Source: Siphonodentalium dalli (lineage: Eukaryota > Mollusca > Scaphopoda > Gadilida > Siphonodentaliidae). Taken from it: a stretch of DNA of 64,000 nucleotides. Below the pieces are notes generated by a model. The model saw only the letters and a program-made list of their open reading frames with translations, did not search any database and was not told where the DNA came from. Of the stretch, positions 48,607-60,930 are shown one piece after another (positions within the stretch are counted from its first letter, which is position 1; every line of letters begins with the position of its first letter). Where the stretch lies: the NCBI GenBank assembly GCA_032622095.1, contig CP136061.1, forward strand, positions 256,381,582-256,445,581, given 5' to 3'. A program made the translations under genes and the position numbers.

Positions 48607-49410
48607 CAATACATCAGGCGACATGGCGAAGCATAAGAGAATTCACACTCGCCCATATAAATGTGACTTATGTCCAAAATCATTCGCCAATTTATGTGTG
48701 TTGATCACAAGAGGATTCACACAGGCGATCGAGCGTATCAGTGCGTTATTTGCGAGAAATAATTCACTCAATCAAGCTGCATAAGGTAATTCACACTGGC
48801 GATCGACCGTATCAATGCGATATTTGCACAAAACCACCTGACGAGGCATAAGATAATACACTTTGATGATCGCCCGTATAAATGTGATATTTGTCAAAAA
48901 TCATTCACCTTCTCAGGACAGTTGACCACACACAAGAGAATACACGCTGATGTTCCACCGATAAAACATTCACGGAATCAAACCACGTTATGAGGCATAA
49001 GAAAATCCATCTCGATGATCGCCCGTATAAATGTGATATTTGTCAAAAATCATTCAGCGTTCAGGGAAGTTTGACTGGACACAAGAGGATTCACACCGGT
49101 GATCGACCGTACCCGTGCGATATTTGTGGGAAATCATTTATGTAGTCGGGAAGTTTGACTTCTCACAAAAGGATTCACATCGGAGATAAAACGTACCAGT
49201 GCGATATTTGTGGGAAATCATTTATGTAGTTGGGAAGTTTGACTAAACACAAGAGGATTCACATCGGAGATTGACCGCACCAGTGCGATATTTGTGGGAA
49301 ATCATTTATGTAGTCGGGAAGTTTGACTTCTCACAAGAGGATTCACATCGGAGATAAAACGTATCAGTGCGATATTTGTGGGAAATCGGTTATGCAGGCG
49401 GGAAGTTTGT
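48607..49410 (+). pseudogene. C2H2 zinc-finger gene, locus 4, third part
   Basis: Fingers continue: CDLCPKSFANLCVLI, CDICQKSFTFSGQLTTHKRIH, CDICQKSFSVQGSLTGHKRIH, then four units of CDICGKSFM-GSLTSHKRIHIGD type. In three of these four (TAG near 49143, 49227 and 49311) the same Gln codon is a stop. The gene is dead. The 84-bp unit was amplified after the stop arose. Confidence 0.8.
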
Positions 49411-49677: not shown

Positions 49678-51113
49678 GGTTACACTGGTGTAAATGTTTT
49701 CCATAGGCCTCAGTGCTAACGGTTTAGCGTGTACTGTTGGCAATATAAATGTTAGGTCCAGAATGTTCTTTATGTTATAGGTGCCGTTTTTATCTGTTTT
49801 AGTACACCGCGGTTGTATATATCCTTTTATGTATCATGATACTTGCGCGCATCCTGCTTTGTTATTTCAGCCTTTTGTGGGTTAATTGAAATGTGTGTCA
49901 GTGTGTGTGCGCGTGAGAGCGAGCATGAATGATTCTATCACCTGCACACTGATTATCACTCACCTGTTACTGGCGGGAAAAATTAGCGCGGTCTGGGGGT
50001 CACTCAGTAATTAATATTTGAAATGGTCAGACGTAGTGTTTTGGATTACCAATTCTAGATATATATAATGAAATGCCGATTTCATTTTATGGAGTATCTT
50101 TAATGGTTGTTAATACTGACTGCTGTGATATGATTATGTTGATGCCTTTATTTTAAATACACTTTATTAACCCTTTAAAGGTGGATTATTTTTTTGTAAA
50201 CATGTATTATATAGTTACCGGGGTATAAAATATTAGATTTGAATCGAAGACTCCTGTCCGGAAATGCTTCTATCGATTAATATTAATTTAATTTCGAATA
50301 TTTTCTGGTCTAAAAAGGTGTGTTTGTTCAGCTAACGAACAATAGTGGATACTGTTAACAGAGACCATAAATTATATTGTTCAATTTTGTCCCAAATAAA
50401 CGTTAATTATACTCATTATCGCTTATATCTGTGGAACAAAACAGTACAAACAACCAATCTGTGACATTTGACATTCGTTGCGTAGCCGTAGGAACAACCC
50501 AGTGCTCTATATCCCAATACGGTCTCATCCGAATGGTCGGTTCTAAAAATAGTAACATAAATGGGCCCGATTTAATATTCGAAATAAAATCAATATTAAT
50601 TGATAGAAGCTTTTCCGGATATAGGTCTTCAGTTCATATCTATTATTTTATACCCACGCAACTATTTAAAATTTGTTATTTAAAGAGATAATCCATCTTT
50701 AATTTGTGTGTTGGAGTTACTATATCTACGTTAAATCCAGCCTTACAACATTTAAATCTGAAAAATTGACATTTTGGGAAACTTTTTACGCAAAAAAATC
50801 ATGTCTGTCTAGCAGGGAATTCGCCTTTAAATCTTGTGTTTTCGTAACTAGTGTCAGAACTGCATAAAAAAATGCTGTCATATTTTAGACCACAACAAAA
50901 AATTCAAACTTCACTACAAAAGGTTAATTCCTGTGCCAATGGCCATTTTTACCTATGGGAAATCATAGGGAAGAGGTGTGATGATGTTTTTGATGCAAAA
51001 AGCACACAATGCTATTGACCAATCAGGGCCCAGTGTCTATTTTATTCTCTCCTATATATTTCTCCCACATCCGCTAAATGTCACTCCATACCCTATTTAC
51101 ACCAGTGTAATCC
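49678..51113. mobile_element. 1,436-bp TIR element in BEL/Pao gag
   Basis: It is flanked by ATA (49675-49677 and 51114-51116). The ends are inverted repeats GG(A)TTACACTGGTGTAAAT. Removing it restores the gag order LEAGI then VDLLDEGDDNVES. It contains one complete TTAA MITE and no transposase ORF. The short duplication is compatible with PIF/Harbinger-type elements, but this is a guess. Confidence 0.8.
50179..50698 (+). mobile_element. TTAA MITE, complete, nested
   Basis: The 520-bp copy lies between TTAA at 50175-50178 and 50699-50702, within the element at 49678-51113. Confidence 0.88.
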
Positions 51114-53240: not shown

Positions 53241-53270
53241 TTAAAACAACGCCCGTAACCCTAACATTAA

Positions 53271-53426
53271 AGATGGATTATCTCTTTAAATAACAAATTT
53301 TAAATAGTTGCGTGTGTATAAAATAATAGATATGAACTGAAGACCTATGTCCGGAAAAGCTTCTATCAATTAATATTGATTTTATTTCGAATATTAAATC
53401 GGGCCCATTTATGTTACTATTTTTAG
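53271..53426 (-). mobile_element. TTAA MITE, truncated
   Basis: TTAA at 53267-53270 precedes AGATGGATTATCTC. The copy breaks off at TATTTTTAG, where Gypsy sequence starts. Confidence 0.8.
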
Positions 53427-53650
53427 CGGGAGTAGGTCGTGGAAGGGGGCGCGGAAATGATCAGAGGCCTAACCGGTTTAGGAAGCAAAATGGAGGGAGG
53501 TTTACCTGTTTTTCTTGCGGGGGTAGGGGCCATTACGCTCGAAATTGTCCCAGTGGCAAGCCCTTTAATCGTTCAGCGCCTCCGGAAAATGCGGAAACCG
53601 GAAACAAAATGGACATGTCAAACCTCAGAGAGTCGGGTCAAGAGACCTGA
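53427..53650 (+). pseudogene. Gag nucleocapsid end with CCHC knuckle
   Basis: The frame from 53411 gives an RG-rich stretch (GRGRGRGNDQRP) and one knuckle CFSCGGRGHYARNCP. It ends in TGA at 53648-53650. Knuckles of this type package element RNA. The first codons come from the MITE and are not part of gag. Confidence 0.8.
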
Positions 53651-53742
53651 TTCCGGCTCCATTTGTAGATGGTCTCAAGGAAGTTGGTAAGAATGAGCTA
53701 ATAAATGTAAATATTGATTACACAGATGTACATGTAAATGAA

Positions 53743-54666
53743 TTGTCCGTTAAAGGGGAGCCATTTCCTCTCAATAATATCAGCCGGGTATGCAATAAAG
53801 TTAACCCAATACCCGACAACTTAATGGATCCAATAGTTAAATCAATACCTGACGATTTGATCAATTTCTCAAGTGATACAATACCCGAGGTTATTTCAAT
53901 ACCGGAGGGAATTTTGATTGATTTAACATCAGAGATTACGGCGCAAGAGGGTTTGGTACTCAATGGTTTGAAGGACTCGATGGCAGTCTCAAACTTTATC
54001 ACAGCCCAAACACTTTTAAGGGACCAGGCCTGTCAAGGGTTGCTGGGAGATTTAGAGGGAAAAACTCTACCTAACATTCTCAGCAACTCTTTACCAGCCG
54101 ATCCGGAAGTTAGGATTCATATGGTTCAAAGACCGTTGGCGATGGTGAATGTATTTCTAAATGGTATGGAAGTGGAATCGGTAATAGATTCAGCCGCAGA
54201 AGTCTCCATAATTTCCGATAAGATTTTTGAAGGTTTTACTATAACACCACCAATTATAAATCATGTGAACTTAAAGTTAGCGGCCAGGAATTCTGGTATG
54301 GGAGGGTTATATGTAGGGCCAGTAGAGATTAAATTGGGAACCCAAATCTATGTAGCACCCATTTATGATCAAATGCTCTTAGGGTATGATTTCATGAAAA
54401 AACATTGTATGACCTTAGATCTCTTAAATGATGAACTCCGCCTCAATAACGAACTCATTCCTATATCTTGTGGTAGTCTCTTGTGTACATTTGGGCTGGT
54501 GGGAATTGGTACAGTCAATAGGAAGTGTCCTCATCTTTTTGGTAAAAGTATGACTGAAAGTTTTGATCTTCCGGCTTTGCCGCCGGAGGACCAACTTGGT
54601 GAGAGTGTGACTGCAAGTTTTGATCTCCGGCCTTGCCGCCGGAGGACCAACTTGGTGAGAATATGA
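53743..54666 (+). CDS. Gypsy protease ORF
   Basis: The 307-codon frame holds a leader of about 110 residues and then a retropepsin: NVFLNGMEVESVIDSAAEVSIIS, with the active site as DSAA instead of the usual D[ST]GA, and YDQMLLGYDFMKKH near the end. The change to Ala at the third position is unusual and may lower activity. The ORF ends out of frame in the second unit of the 57-bp repeat, where one base is missing. In the neighbouring frame (54633-54998) the protein continues to a region just before pol. Confidence 0.7.
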   Translation: MSVKGEPFPLNNISRVCNKVNPIPDNLMDPIVKSIPDDLINFSSDTIPEVISIPEGILIDLTSEITAQEGLVLNGLKDSMAVSNFITAQTLLRDQACQGLLGDLEGKTLPNILSNSLPADPEVRIHMVQRPLAMVNVFLNGMEVESVIDSAAEVSIISDKIFEGFTITPPIINHVNLKLAARNSGMGGLYVGPVEIKLGTQIYVAPIYDQMLLGYDFMKKHCMTLDLLNDELRLNNELIPISCGSLLCTFGLVGIGTVNRKCPHLFGKSMTESFDLPALPPEDQLGESVTASFDLRPCRRRTNLVRI

Positions 54667-54776
54667 CAGCAAGTTTTGATCTCCCGGCCTTGCCGCCGGA
54701 GGACCAACTTGGTGAGAATATGACTGCAAGTTTTGATCTCCCGGTCTTACCGCCTGAGGACCAACTTGGCGAGAGT
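54550..54776 (+). repeat. 57-bp tandem repeat in pol leader
   Basis: Four units start at 54550, 54607, 54663 and 54720. Each codes for MTASFDLPALPPEDQLGEN-like 19 residues. The second unit has 56 bp, which shifts the frame between protease and pol. Confidence 0.9.
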
Positions 54777-55000
54777 ATGATAGTCGGTACAGGCCCCGGG
54801 AGGGAGAGTGACGTACACGTAGGTTCCTATTTGTTTTCTAACCGAAGGATGAGTGATAAAAAACCGGAAGAAAGGATTCAACCGGTAATGATTTCCAATA
54901 AATGTGTGATTCCCCCTCGTACAGGTAGGCTGGTCGGTTGTAGAGTAAATTCCATGGCCCACGATTTTATAGTAGAACCGGTTATAGGGATAAGATAATT

Positions 55001-58000
55001 GTGGGGTGTTCGTTACACAGTAAAGGGACCACTGAAATACTTTGTTGCATTTTGAATCCTACCGGGTCTTGGGTAACGCTGAGGAAGAACCGTCAAATCT
55101 CTCATGTTTCTGAGATTAGTTCACTGACATCGGAAAGGTTTTGCGATAATCACCCACGAGTCAATGAAACTGTGGTGGAAAATGGAAATATCTCAACATT
55201 GCCCCCACATTTATCCCAATTTTTTGAAAGGTCAATAGTACACTTGAATTATTCAGAACAATTGAAATTAAAAGACTTATTAATAGAATTCCAAGACATT
55301 TTTGCTACCCACGAATATGATCTTGGGCACTTTACGGCTATAGAGCACACCATTCCTACTGGTGATGCAACACCCGTTAAATTAAGAATGTGCAGGACCC
55401 CGGAAGCCTTTGCGGGGGAGGAGGAGTCGCACTTGAAGAAACTTTTGGGCACCGGAATAATTAAACCTTCTATGTCTGAGTGGTGTTCAGTCCCGGTTCT
55501 TATCCGTAAACCTGATCATACGGTACGGTGGTGCTTAGATTATCGAAAATTGAACGCGGTAACCAAAAAAGATCAATTTCCCCTACCGCTAGTCGATGAT
55601 TGTCTAGCGGCACTAGCTGACAACGAATGGGCTTCAAAATTGGACTGCAACCAGGCGTATTACCAACTCCGTATCCGAGAGGAAGACCAACCTAAGACTG
55701 CGTTTATTACTAAATACGGGATTTTTGAGTTTGAACGCTTAAGTTTTGGACTTACGGGCGCAGTGGCTAGTTACTGTCGGGCAATGAATCTCGTGTTGCG
55801 CGGGCTCCTCTGGAAGACCACTTTGGCATTCGTAGACGATTGTTTGGTTATGGGGCAGGGAGTAGATTCGCACATAAACAATTTAAAAGAAGTCCTATTG
55901 AGGTTTCTGGAATATGGCTTAAAACTAAAACCCCGGAAATGTCTTCTGTTCCAAAAAGAAGTGCAATTCCTTGGAAGAGTCATAAGTGCAAACGGGCTAG
56001 AAATGGGGGATAGTGCAACTCAAGTAGTCAAAGATTGGCCACGTCCACGTTCGGCGAAGGAAGTAGAGAGGTTTATGGGGTTAGTTAACTATCACCGTAA
56101 CTTTGTTAAAGATTTTGCAGAACTTGCCAAACCTTTATATGATTCTATAAGGAAAAAACCTTTTTCATGGGGAGATTCTGAAGAATCTGCCTGGCAAAAC
56201 CTTCGGAAACTTCTAACGAGCCCACCAGTATTGGCCCTTCCGAATAAAACCGACCCATATCTGCTAGATACCGATTGTTCACAAACGTGTATGGGGGCTG
56301 AATTAATTCAGATACAAAATGGGCAAGAAAAAGTTATTTGCTATGGGAGTCTAGCTTTATCAAAGGAACAGCGGAATTATTGCACCACACGTAAGGAACT
56401 TTTAGCTGTCGTATGTTTTACTCGCCAATACAAGCATTATTTATTGGGCAAACCTTTTACGCTCCGTACAGACCACAGCAGTCTTACGTGGTTGATGAAT
56501 TTCAAGGAGCCCCAATGCCAATTGGCGAGATGGCTCCTCGAATTAAGTCAATTTAACATGCAAATAGTATTTCGGAAGGGTGAAAAACATTCGAATGCAG
56601 ATGCGCTGAGTAGGATCCCATGGGACGAATATTGTAAAGCAGAGACCGGGATTGAATCGCTGCCTTGTGGGGGATGTGCCTACTGCAAAAGGGTTGAGTT
56701 GAAGAGAAAGAAATTTGAGGAAGAAGTGAATGACATAATACCTCTGTCTGCCATTTCACGAATTGGAAAAAGGGAGCAAGGCGCTAATTTTGATTTAAAT
56801 TTATTTTGGGCCTCAGCTGGAGTAACACCAACCATGGATTCTCCTCAAACTAACCTGACTAACCCTCACAAAGAGGTCCCCAATAAGTTGCTTACACAGC
56901 CTTTGATCCCAAATACTCCATTAGGCCTACACGAGACCTGGGATCCGGGTGGAGAGACTATAGCTAGAGAAACCAAGGATCCTATGGCCCTTTCCCTCAC
57001 CGGAAAGGGGTCAGGTCCTGAACATAAACCATCGGTCCTGTTAGTGGAATTTCAAAAGCACTCATCGGACGATATTAAGCTAGCTCAAGAAGCTGACCCA
57101 GATCTCAAACTTATTTTGAATTGCCTAATCAACACTGTGGAACCTTCGGAAGGGGATTTACTGATATCTAGCCCTGCTGCCAAAAATTATTGGTTAAATA
57201 AGGAACTTTGCGTTCTTGATAATGATAATGTTTTGTATAGAACCCGCAAGACTGGGCGAAAAGTTATAGTGGTTCCATTTAATATGAGAAAAGAAATATT
57301 TGAGTTATGCCACAATGTTCCACTTTCTGGACACCAAGGAATGAGTAGAACGAAAGAGCGGGTCAAGGAAATTGGTTATTGGGTTGGGCTAAATAACGAT
57401 GTTGAGATCTGGGTGGCAGCCTGCAAGACTTGCAATGTTTGTAAAAAGCAAAGCCGGCACCCTCGCGCTCCACTTCAACAAATTCAAATGGGGGCACCTA
57501 TGGAACGCGTGCACATGGACTTTTTGGGGCCATTACCAAGGATGGAACAGGGAAATGAATATGTCCTCATGATCGTTGACTCTTTCACCAAATGGGTGGA
57601 ATGTATTCCATTACCTTCTCAAACAGCTATTGATACAGCGCGGGCCGCGATAAATGAATTCTTTACTCGATTTGGTCTTCCATTTGGGATTTTGACAGAC
57701 CAGGGGCGTAACTTTGAGAGCGATCTTTTTGCGGAAATGTGTAAGGCATTGAATATTGATAAGCTCCGATGCTCGCCATATAGACCATCCGCTAATGGCC
57801 AATGCGAAAGATATAATAGAACCTTAATGGACGCGGTGCGCTGCTTTGTGGGCAAAAAACAGAAAAGTTGGGACATTTTCCTACCTCAAATAGCTGGAGC
57901 TTTGCGATCATCGGTTTGTCGGCAAACCGGTTTCACTCCGAATCGTTTGATGTTGGGCAGAGAGGTAACCAAACCCGTCGACCTCATGTACCCCGCAAAT

Positions 58001-58099
58001 TTCCCTCATAAAAGCATGGAAAATATACCTGACTTTGTTTTGGAACTGGAAAATACAATGAGGGTCGCCCATGAGATTGCTAGAGATAAACTAAAACAT
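55001..58099 (+). CDS. Gypsy Pol: RT, RNase H, integrase core
   Basis: The frame is open for more than 1,030 codons. RT: RWCLDYRKLNAVTKKDQFPLP, LDCNQAYYQLRI, and the catalytic box LAFVDDCLV (YxDD as FVDD). RNase H: LLDTDCSQTCMGAEL, TRKELLAVV, RTDHSSLTWL, then NADALSR. Integrase: H2C2 finger (SGHQGM...CKTCNVC), core with MDFLGPL, TDQGRNFES and NGQCERYNRTL as the D,D,E residues. It copies RNA to cDNA and inserts it. The frame ends at 58132, but homology ends at about 58099 (AHEIARDKLK); the last residues come from the inverted neighbour. The ATG or start is not clear, since the frame could be read as part of a larger polyprotein. Confidence 0.92.
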
Positions 58100-59959
58100 C
58101 CTTCCTGGTGTCCCGAAATGTGGAGCATCTGACTCCAAGAGCAACCTGTCAGTTCGCACTGCTCTGACACCCTCTTTCTGTATTTCACTGAAAGTTGCGC
58201 ATGCCCCAGTGAAACCAAAGAAGGTATTTGGTCGAGAATGCGTCCAGGCATGTACCGTGCGCTTGGACCCCTGGAAGCAGTGATAATGTAAACTCTGGTC
58301 CTCAAACGTTTGGCTTCTCACTGTCTCAAGCGCAGTGAAACTGACATCATGACTCAAAGGGTCATCTACGGGTCCCCTAATATGGAGGATAAATGGCTTA
58401 GCTGTCGTCCTTGCCGCCCTCAGCAATTCGCGGAAAATGTCATCTTGTTCCACCATTTCTGTTGTGGTCATCTTCCGAGACCTATCCAATCCAATCGCGC
58501 CCACTGCAATAACTGCAGGGTGATGGATGAGCGTCTTAAATGCTGTCATCTTCTCGATAGATTTAAGTTGGTTGTATTTTTTGGGATGGCATCCCACAGC
58601 GACTTTCCAATGGGGATTGACGGTCAAATCTCCAATTGCTGGGTAGGTGTCCGGGTCGCAATACACTTCTACCCCTCCTCTCACCTGGACGTGATAGTTC
58701 ACCGAAACGGTAACCGTTTTCAATAGCTCCTCAGTGGTGGTGTGTGGATTGTTTTTGAAGTTTTTACACATTCTATCCCGGTGTAAATGGGAATCCACCC
58801 CAGTAACAAGTGGTGGCCCCTGCGGTTCTCTGGTCATCTTAGGCTTCACCCTTGAGCTACCAGTAGCTATAGTGGCACTTGATGCTGAACTATTTGCCTT
58901 GCCACTATGTTCGTAAATCATCGTATTGATTTTTACTTTCTTATTTGCCTCTCTCTTTGATGAAATATCACGGTGACGCTTACCACCCTTATATACTTCG
59001 CGACGAGACTTTATTTCTTTCGATGAGTCGTAATGTCGCCTTGAGTCCCTATCCGAATCATGATGCCTGTCTCTGGATAACCCAGATTGATGTCTAGCAT
59101 CTTTAGATGAATCCCTAGGATGCATACCCCTAGACTTCTCACCCGTGTATGCATCCTCAATGATGAGAGCAGCTGCGAGTTCATCTGGAGCCTCCTCTGG
59201 AAACATCCCTCCCTTGATGCATTTTCTCGCTTCATTTATGTCGGCGCGGGGCAGATAGTTTCTTGACAGTCTCCCTCTCATTAGATCTATTTTCCAAAGT
59301 GGGCTGGTTGACTTAGCAAATGATAACTTCTGTTCTCTGGTCAGTTTGTTTAAGACTGCTACCAGCACCCTCCAATGAACCAGACAGGCGTTCCCATTAA
59401 TGTATGACTCTAAAAACTTTGGTGGTGGTCCATAGTTTTGTTCCAAGGGCCACCAACAAGGCCTCAAATGGTTGGAGTACACGTGTTCCTTCTGCTTCCC
59501 TTTAACTTCTTGATCACACCCTTTCACTGGGCACTTTCTGGGATCATAGATCAGGGACTGCTCGGAAACACGATTGGATGGTAACGGTAAGGCGATCGAG
59601 TTTGACTCGATACCTGTATTTGTACTGCAGGACACATTTTTACCCTGACTAGCCTCAGCTCTTTCTGGTTGAGATTCCAATGGATTGATAACCACCATTG
59701 GAGTATCGGATGGAAAAATTTCTGGCAATGTCCCAAATACATCCGAAAATACTGAATCAATCCCGAAAGGATTGAAACTTCCACTGGTGTACTTATCATC
59801 TGCAGGCAAGTCGGTGATATCCACCGACATACTGTCTTCCCCTATCTTCTCTAACCTCTGGTTGGATGAGGTCGATAACCGGCCATCATTTATTGGTACT
59901 TCTGGAGCTGGAGAACCTGGTTATGAACGTAGCAGTATACTGTCGTTGGAATCACTCAT
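58091..59959 (-). pseudogene. Gypsy-linked ORF with C2H2 finger and TatD-type domain
   Basis: The ORF starts at ATG 59959-59957 (MSDSNDSILL), has one TAA at codon 13 (59923-59921), and is then open for 579 codons from M (59830). In that numbering a C2H2-like finger uses C100, C105, H116, H121; residues 236-300 are rich in Arg, Asp, Ser and Lys; and a TatD-like metallohydrolase domain spans about 341-570. The domain has HxH (H348, H350 in DSHLH), GCHPK (413-417), HIR (H483), HCFQGS (H517) and LLLESDAPHF (D568). The usual metal-binding Glu of GEIGLD reads Ala (A445, GCG where GAG would be expected). TatD enzymes are metal-dependent nucleases; TATDN2 is the closest named animal relative I can suggest. 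The domain is cut off after D568 by the inverted junction. It starts 38 bp after the Pol stop. Confidence 0.8.
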
Positions 59960-59997
59960 GGTATCTGGAAAACAAAGCTAGACTAAATTTGATGCCA

Positions 59998-60412
59998 CTA
60001 ACATTTTGGGCATCTATAAATGTCAATGCTATCTGCTTCCTCCTGGGTGATGCTAACACATTCACCATGATACCATTCATCACAAATATCACATTGAAGC
60101 ATATAAATTTGCCACCATACTTTTGTTGACATAGACAAAATTTTCCTGTTTTCTTTTCAATGGCCACCTCTCCAGTTTCCCGGAATTTAACAATGCATTT
60201 ATCCAACCATGGAGGAAGTGTTCGATCATGACATTTCTTTAATCGGTCATGGTTTACCACCATAATCGCATTTTTGAACAAAACTTTGAATAAGTATGGA
60301 GTATACACCTCACTAATGATGCCTGGACCTTTCCAAAAAGGTGACAATTTTCTGGTTTTACCCTTTTTAGTTGCCGTATCAAGCAAATACACTAAATCAC
60401 CTAATTTATATG
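59998..60412 (-). pseudogene. Gypsy integrase tail with C-terminal PHD finger
   Basis: On the minus strand the sequence reads KLGDLVYLLDTATKKGKTRKLSPFWKGPG and YTPYLFKVLFKNAIMVVNHDRLKKC, the SH3/chromodomain-like end of Gypsy integrase. It then continues with CLCQQKYGGKF and, after a one-base shift near 60103, LQCDICDEWYHGECVS and IYRCPKC before TAG (60000-59998). The Cys and His spacing is that of a PHD finger, a reader of histone tails. In Pol this would guide integration to chromatin (inference). A stop upstream near 60413 marks where the element sequence ends. Confidence 0.82.
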
Positions 60413-60930
60413 TCTATTTGTTCACACTGACCAACCGTTTCCCCGTTGTGGTGTGCGTTTGGCCGTTGTGGTGTGGCGAAACGCCGTTGTGCGGTGTTTT
60501 TGGCGTAATTCGCAAGCGGGTAGAAGAGGGCTGACCACCAAAATCGGGATGGAGAGTTAATGTGCATATTTATAATAATGAGACCCCCACAGCCCTGAAG
60601 AAGGATATTATACACAACGAATGAGCGCTTCCCTGGCTCTCTGTTTGATTGTACGGCTGATAAATAGCCTACACAAAATGCCAGGGTGGGCATTCTGACA
60701 ATGGTTCCTCGACATGAAAGCCTTATTTGCTCACCCCTGAACACAATTTGACACCCCGCTGGTATTCTCCACGTAAGAAAAATTATACCCGATCATGCTG
60801 GTAACGGCCCCAATTCTCCAATGGCCTAAATATTCAATAAAATCCCAATCGAAGTGGGTCAACAGCAGCGAAAAAATGACAACGCCGTTGTGGTTTTCAT
60901 GGCAACAACGTTGTGGCGGTGCTGGTTTTT
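60413..60930. repeat. Spacer with CGTTGTGG repeats
   Basis: Five or more copies of CGTTGTGG or its close variants occur at 60435-60495 and 60885-60920, some in GGCGAAACGCC-type inverted context. No gene is seen. It may be the edge of another fold-back element. Confidence 0.4.

Follow-up and report, generated by a model that had tools for sequence, protein, structure and literature searches.

A third open reading frame with a TatD nuclease domain behind PHD-tailed integrases in Ty3/Gypsy retrotransposons of the scaphopod Siphonodentalium dalli

The stretch of DNA analysed here, called the window, comprises 64,000 nt of the scaphopod Siphonodentalium dalli (assembly GCA_032622095.1, contig CP136061.1, positions 256,381,582 to 256,445,581) and contains what is left of two lineages that belong to the same group of Ty3/Gypsy retrotransposons, in which a predicted TatD nuclease is encoded by a third open reading frame (ORF3) behind the integrase. 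The group is large and was active recently in this genome, which was searched over its 2.23 Gb in 9 contigs; its families are referred to as FA, FP, F969 and F942, and the genomic loci compared carry L-numbers. On the minus strand lies a fragment of family FA that is cut at both ends (58097..60431; 97.2% identity to the copy L040, in two stretches). It holds the C-terminal region of an integrase (60180..60431, inner limit approximate, from comparison of its translation with L040), the codons of a PHD finger (60000..60140, limits approximate; the intact homologue in L040 matches Pfam PHD with E 1.3e-8), a splice-acceptor-like site together with the FA start codon of the TatD ORF (59957..59980, position transferred from L040) and a 579-codon open frame that is a remnant of this ORF (58091..59830). 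Within the open frame, pattern matches place a C2H2-like finger at residue 100 (59468..59533) and the HWR motif of a middle domain at residue 150 (59363..59383), while residues 345-572 form a TatD domain (58115..58798; Pfam PF01026, E 3.1e-27) that is truncated at its C-terminus and has one ligand Glu replaced by Ala. An initial annotation made from the letters alone had recognised the minus-strand integrase C-terminus, the PHD codons and the 579-codon ORF with its finger, a basic R/S/D/K tract and a TatD domain, all of which are borne out by translation and Pfam.

On the plus strand the window carries a truncated piece of family FP (53429..58098) with the protease region, reverse transcriptase (RT), RNase H and integrase core, recognised by matches to L050 and by Pfam (RT, RNase H, H2C2, rve). 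Its identity to L050 is 97.8% over the longest stretch (54539-58098) and 95% over 53429-54779, and it is without PHD, KptA (Tpt1) and TatD parts of its own. The blastn limits of the matches to L050 and L040 overlap by 2 nt, at 58097..58098, which is a secondary junction between two broken elements. A single element with an inverted 3' part, made up of the pol on the plus strand and the tail on the minus strand, was considered and ruled out, since the pieces match two different families. The protease region of the FP piece also contains an in-frame tandem repeat of 57 bp (54539-54798, LPALPPEDQLGE-like units), the copy number of which differs in L050.

The FA copy of the window is a dead fragment. 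Two nucleotides inserted within the PHD codons take integrase and PHD out of one frame, so that the annotated integrase ending in a PHD finger stands as to its codons and falls as to its continuity in this copy. About 237 nt are gone from the interior of the TatD ORF, the C-terminal end is gone as well, and splicing was ruled out as the cause of the internal gap, as no GT-AG ends were seen by eye. Because a stop follows soon after the FA start codon, the 579-codon ORF begins at an internal Met; the native FA-type ORF measures 698-744 codons from its first Met in six fuller copies, and the 579 residues are thus not the element's own ORF. The start that the annotation placed 38 bp past the integrase stop is accurate for the family start codon, which lies 38 nt past the pol stop in L040. 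The change of the ligand Glu to Ala is real (GAIGLD in the window), and the expectation that intact copies keep Glu was confirmed in 7 of 8 same-family copies (GEIGLD in L010-L016); L018, a partial copy, reads GKIGLD. The biology of the element has to be read from other copies.

Four fuller copies were fetched first, namely L039 and L040 of FA, L041 of F969 and L042 of F942, and all four show the same order of gag, protease, RT, RNase H, integrase, PHD, stop and a separate ORF ending in TatD. Pfam was run on pol of L040, gag of L042 and the TatD ORFs of L040-L042; the order protease, RT, RNase H, integrase was confirmed on the L040 frames and the plus-strand frame of the window, and the three TatD ORFs matched TatD with E 8e-34 to 3e-35. 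Stops or frame breaks interrupt pol in L039, L040 and L042, and in L041 it is open over 1401 codons. All four copies have an open TatD frame; counted from the first Met, the lengths are 698, 741, 925 and 966 codons. In all three copies examined with their flanks, paired long terminal repeats (LTRs) enclose both pol and TatD, an arrangement that the annotation had proposed to look for; the pairs measure 274 bp (100% identity), 268 bp (99.6%) and 297 bp (99.7%), and the LTR-bounded elements 11.4, 12.0 and 10.0 kb. Target-site duplications of 4 bp were seen by eye in two of these copies and none was clear in the third, and a primer binding site of the TGG type could not be made out by eye beside the 5' LTRs. 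The high LTR identity and the near-identical copies on several contigs point to recent movement. As to gag, an ORF in the gag region of F942 (L046:2060-3499, plus strand) has a helix-hairpin-helix-like start (Pfam HHH_3, E 5e-5, below the cut-off), and by eye the gag-region start in the F969 leader of L044 resembles it.

The lineage that the annotation had proposed, with a TATDN2-like TatD ORF of the HxH class behind a PHD-tailed integrase, is thus repeated in fuller copies, and eight further TatD loci display both this arrangement and its variants. A PHD-tailed integrase precedes the TatD ORF in L049, L051, L052 and L056, an integrase without PHD does so in L053, and a broken pol in L055; in L054 no frame of 150 codons occurs in the 2.9 kb upstream of TatD. 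The FP copy L050 (240-6485, plus strand) is a single frame of 2082 codons from protease to TatD, in which PHD, KptA and finger are lost and the integrase continues directly into the TatD half of ORF3. Across the 12 rows compared, the finger is found in 9 and the HWR domain in 11, and ORF3 has large low-complexity basic regions. In the related protein P0008, structure-library matches cover the TatD part only, and the helical HWR region corresponds to residues ~134-278.

The linkage extends across the genome. A search with an integrase-plus-PHD query yielded 105 rows (104 of 4,704 candidates scored), of which 94 reach the end of the PHD, and TatD was counted when it lay at most 5 kb downstream in the same orientation, with 230 TatD places among the matches listed. 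At least 75 of the 94 PHD-tailed integrases have such a TatD, with 0.02 expected by chance; the count was at least 68 before a third TatD list was added. None of the 94 has a listed TatD upstream and one has it on the opposite strand. As the query itself is PHD-tailed, these counts cover PHD-tailed families and not Gypsy families without PHD. Spacing between integrase and TatD is constant within a family (2152 nt in nine F969 copies). Seen from the other side, 20 TatD matches whose open frames reach 400 codons or more, hand-picked down the ranking, show integrase similarity within 1.7 kb upstream in 13 cases (one weak, L062) and a complete PHD pattern in 10. Family copies devoid of TatD, with TatD solely in host genes, had been named by the annotation as the pattern of a chance junction, and these counts run the other way.

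The protein encoded by ORF3 belongs by profile and fold to the TatD nucleases of the HxH class (TATDN2/3 type) and is predicted to be a nuclease. All 11 TatD lineages, at identities down to 22% (31% without L053), retain its metal ligands (HxH, Glu, His, His, Asp), as do 15 of 16 single copies. The ratio of non-synonymous to synonymous substitution rates (dN/dS, NG86) of the TatD ORF, which the annotation had suggested measuring across copies, is 0.20-0.94 in 15 FA pairs, 0-0.46 in 20 of 21 F942 pairs (one undefined) and 0.09 between F969 and F942, where dS is saturated; the pairs are not independent. The ORF is shown to be under purifying selection. Distance matrices of integrase and TatD agree (r = 0.89 over eight lineages; 2 of 20,000 permutations equally high). 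In a tree with host CCCH-TatD exons as reference, 10 of 11 element TatDs form one clade (100/99) separate from four host exons of this genome. The host-like exons L001, L002, L004 and L006 have a CCCH-type finger beside TatD, measure ~300 codons and fall outside the element clade.

A second enzyme, missed by the initial annotation along with the membership of the plus-strand piece in the TatD-carrying group, is present in part of the group. Four families carry a full Tpt1/KptA domain in the TatD ORF, upstream of finger and TatD (PF01885; L049, E 7.6e-48; L051, 7e-32; L077, 1.6e-44; L078, 2.4e-41), among them FP (L077), the source of the plus-strand piece of the window; Pfam found none in FA, F969, F942, L052, L053, L054 and L056. 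The closest solved proteins are tRNA 2'-phosphotransferase 1 (7yw3, 7yw2). The catalytic set of Tpt1/KptA is Arg-His-Arg-Arg; all four families retain the first-motif Arg-His and the GMR/GAR Arg, and two of them (L051 and FP) have Lys in place of the IRA.QGH Arg. The element domain is full-length, like that of Tpt1/KptA/TRPT1, and differs from these enzymes in its fusion to a finger and TatD that follow it within an ORF of a retrotransposon and, in the two families, in the exchange to Lys. Of 83 PF01885 matches in the genome, 39 of them full-length, at least 34 (at least 24 of the full-length ones) are followed within 4 kb by one of 150 listed TatD places, and none has a listed TatD upstream or on the other strand. 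The remaining 49, without a TatD partner among the matches listed, may be fragments, list gaps or other genes. Several KptA matches without a listed TatD partner cluster at G000:C6:168.57-168.85 Mb. The PHD of the elements has its best solved matches in BPTF, PHF2 and PHF8 (E 9e-14 to 2e-12), whose PHD fingers read histone H3 trimethylated at lysine 4 (H3K4me3), and by sequence is closest to such readers.

How the TatD ORF is expressed may be indicated by its upstream sequence. A pyrimidine tract with AG stands just before the TatD ATG and is strong in five of eight families (FA, F969, F942, L051, L053), while such strong sites occur at most once per 1,100 nt of locus; the combined p by site density over all eight families is 9e-5, with a score devised after some sites had been seen. 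A donor-like GTAAGT is present in two of three leaders. These signals support, rather than show, a spliced, env-like sub-genomic message as the source of the TatD ORF, and the acceptor-like sites favour it over the single shared transcript that the annotation had suggested. Stop-restart past the nearby pol stop would be an alternative route.

Relatives and precedents place the group in a wider context. Related proteins with matching domains occur in the gene sets of bivalves and a sea urchin. A first protein search returned one bacterial protein and nothing else; among bacterial and archaeal genome contigs, the best 80 of 489 relatives were bacterial records matched over the TatD part and were left aside in the comparisons, and a viral contig collection yielded no relative. 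Three finger/TatD-type proteins (P0007, P0025, P0027) are filed under metagenome-assembled genomes (MAGs) of Sedimenticola and Ca. Thiodiazotropha, which are symbionts of marine invertebrates, and are probably host DNA in MAG bins. In the giant squid, a figure of the Hox cluster shows TATDN2 next to POGK and ZMYM1 (PMC6962438); going by the figure, this TATDN2 could belong to such an element instead of being a gene of the host.

To our knowledge, a nuclease or RNA-repair enzyme lies outside the normal gene set of virus-like jumping genes. ORFs for extra enzymes in LTR elements are nevertheless already known, and what appears to be new here is TatD and, unexpectedly, Tpt1 as a second enzyme; in the open-licence literature, no report of a TatD or Tpt1 ORF in an LTR element was found among the matches listed. 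The nearest precedent, judged from passages of PMC5408684, is ORF3 of Juno and Vesta, LTR retrotransposons of bdelloid rotifers, which likewise is an additional 3' nuclease ORF in the place of env. It encodes a DEDDy 3'-5' exonuclease acting on RNA or DNA 3' ends, in contrast to the TatD described here; the same passages mention neither a PHD integrase nor KptA and state that ORF3s are typically expressed via spliced messages. The word TatD is absent from the Juno/Vesta text (PMC5408684) and from a review that deals with additional ORFs of LTR elements in plants (PMC7264820), and a review of giant transposons contains none of the words TatD, PHD and phosphotransferase (PMC6431247). Ty3/Gypsy elements of the orchid Phalaenopsis have similarly taken up a nucleic-acid enzyme as an added ORF, albeit a different one (an AlkB demethylase of N6-methyladenosine), in a plant host and in 25-kb elements, and section 12 of the paper lists 15 extra domains, with neither TatD nor Tpt1 named there (PMC9289625). 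Passages on the host enzymes attribute RNA 3' exonuclease and endonuclease activity and the resolution of R-loops to human TATDN2 (PMC12709183), and 3' exonuclease and apurinic/apyrimidinic endonuclease activity to TATDN1 and TATDN3 (PMC10085689). As far as these passages go, the element proteins share the HxH and other metal-ligand columns and the TatD fold with TATDN2 and TATDN3 (PMC10085689, PMC12709183); unlike them, they have a finger and an HWR domain and reside in many copies in LTR elements.

Taken together, the architecture, the LTRs around both genes, the many recent copies, the kept ligands, the purifying selection and the agreement of integrase and TatD divergence show a third ORF, with C2H2-like finger, helical HWR domain and HxH-class TatD domain, as an inherited part of these Ty3/Gypsy elements. 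Including its expression and mechanism as proposed here, this reading is given a probability of roughly 0.6. ORF3 would be made from a spliced, env-like sub-genomic RNA, and its protein would be a metal-dependent 3'-5' exonuclease or a structure-specific nuclease that the finger, perhaps with the HWR domain, holds on the nucleic acid of the element. TatD might then trim RNA or cDNA ends or clear RNA:DNA hybrids while the element is being reverse-transcribed or integrated, the PHD tail may direct integration to active, H3K4me3-marked chromatin, and in the KptA families a second activity on RNA ends or 2'-phosphate would be added. Several observations weigh against this reading. No TatD was found downstream of 19 of the 94 PHD-tailed integrases among the matches listed, which may be truncated copies or list gaps, and 7 of the 20 sampled TatD frames have no integrase within 1.7 kb. 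One FA pair reaches a dN/dS of 0.94, and very recent copies carry little information. L053 is without PHD, and a long branch sets its TatD apart from the others, so that there may have been one capture or two. The acceptor is weak in L049 and FP and none is convincing in L052, and the third leader is without the donor-like motif.

The main rival, though unlikely, is a role in counter-defence, in which TatD, with KptA where present, would have small RNAs, sensors or silencing RNAs of the host as targets for degradation or modification, and not intermediates of the element. An accessory ORF kept under selection in an env-like place would suit such a role, KptA is present in some families and absent from others, a pattern common among defence tools, and the authors of the orchid study interpreted AlkB likewise in the passages concerned (PMC9289625); however, the finger and HWR domain, common to nearly all rows, fit a fixed nucleic-acid partner equally well. 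A structural, non-catalytic ORF3 that binds or packages nucleic acid, with the TatD fold as a relic, would account for the basic low-complexity regions and the finger but is quite improbable, as a relic would not need every ligand that the 11 lineages have kept. Host CCCH-TatD exons in the genome (L001-L006) provide a conceivable source for a neutral passenger, which would be a host gene that travels with the elements and brings them no benefit; this is less probable again in view of the purifying selection, the many divergent families, the fixed place and spacing and the separation of element TatDs from host exons in the tree. Finally, although the window itself joins two broken pieces, the idea that a Gypsy fragment was joined to a host TatD gene by chance is refuted by the order integrase-PHD-TatD inside single LTR-bounded copies and its recurrence behind at least 75 of 94 integrases.

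Beyond the inherited third ORF, a more far-reaching and somewhat doubtful proposal is that of a widespread invertebrate Ty3/Gypsy group in which a nucleic-acid processing module has taken the place of env and would serve RNA/DNA end repair or hybrid clearing for replication or for escape from RNA surveillance by the host, and which would be the first retroelements described with Tpt1 and TatD. The module would consist of the integrase with its chromatin-reading PHD and of ORF3 with finger, HWR domain and TatD, joined by Tpt1 in several families.

Elsewhere in the window, a zinc-finger-like repeat array with 84-bp units lies at 48706-49399, and two 170-bp segments 2.5 kb apart (50543-50712 and 53257-53426) form an inverted pair with 96% complementarity.

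For the related bivalve and sea urchin proteins, the matching domains suggest that some of those filed as "uncharacterized" or "TatD" are element genes and not host repair genes. Enzymes that retrotransposons keep beyond gag-pol mark the life-cycle steps or host defences where gag-pol falls short, and TatD, in some families with Tpt1, under selection beside a histone-reading integrase offers a testable handle on how ends are processed, on RNA surveillance and on R-loops where integration takes place.
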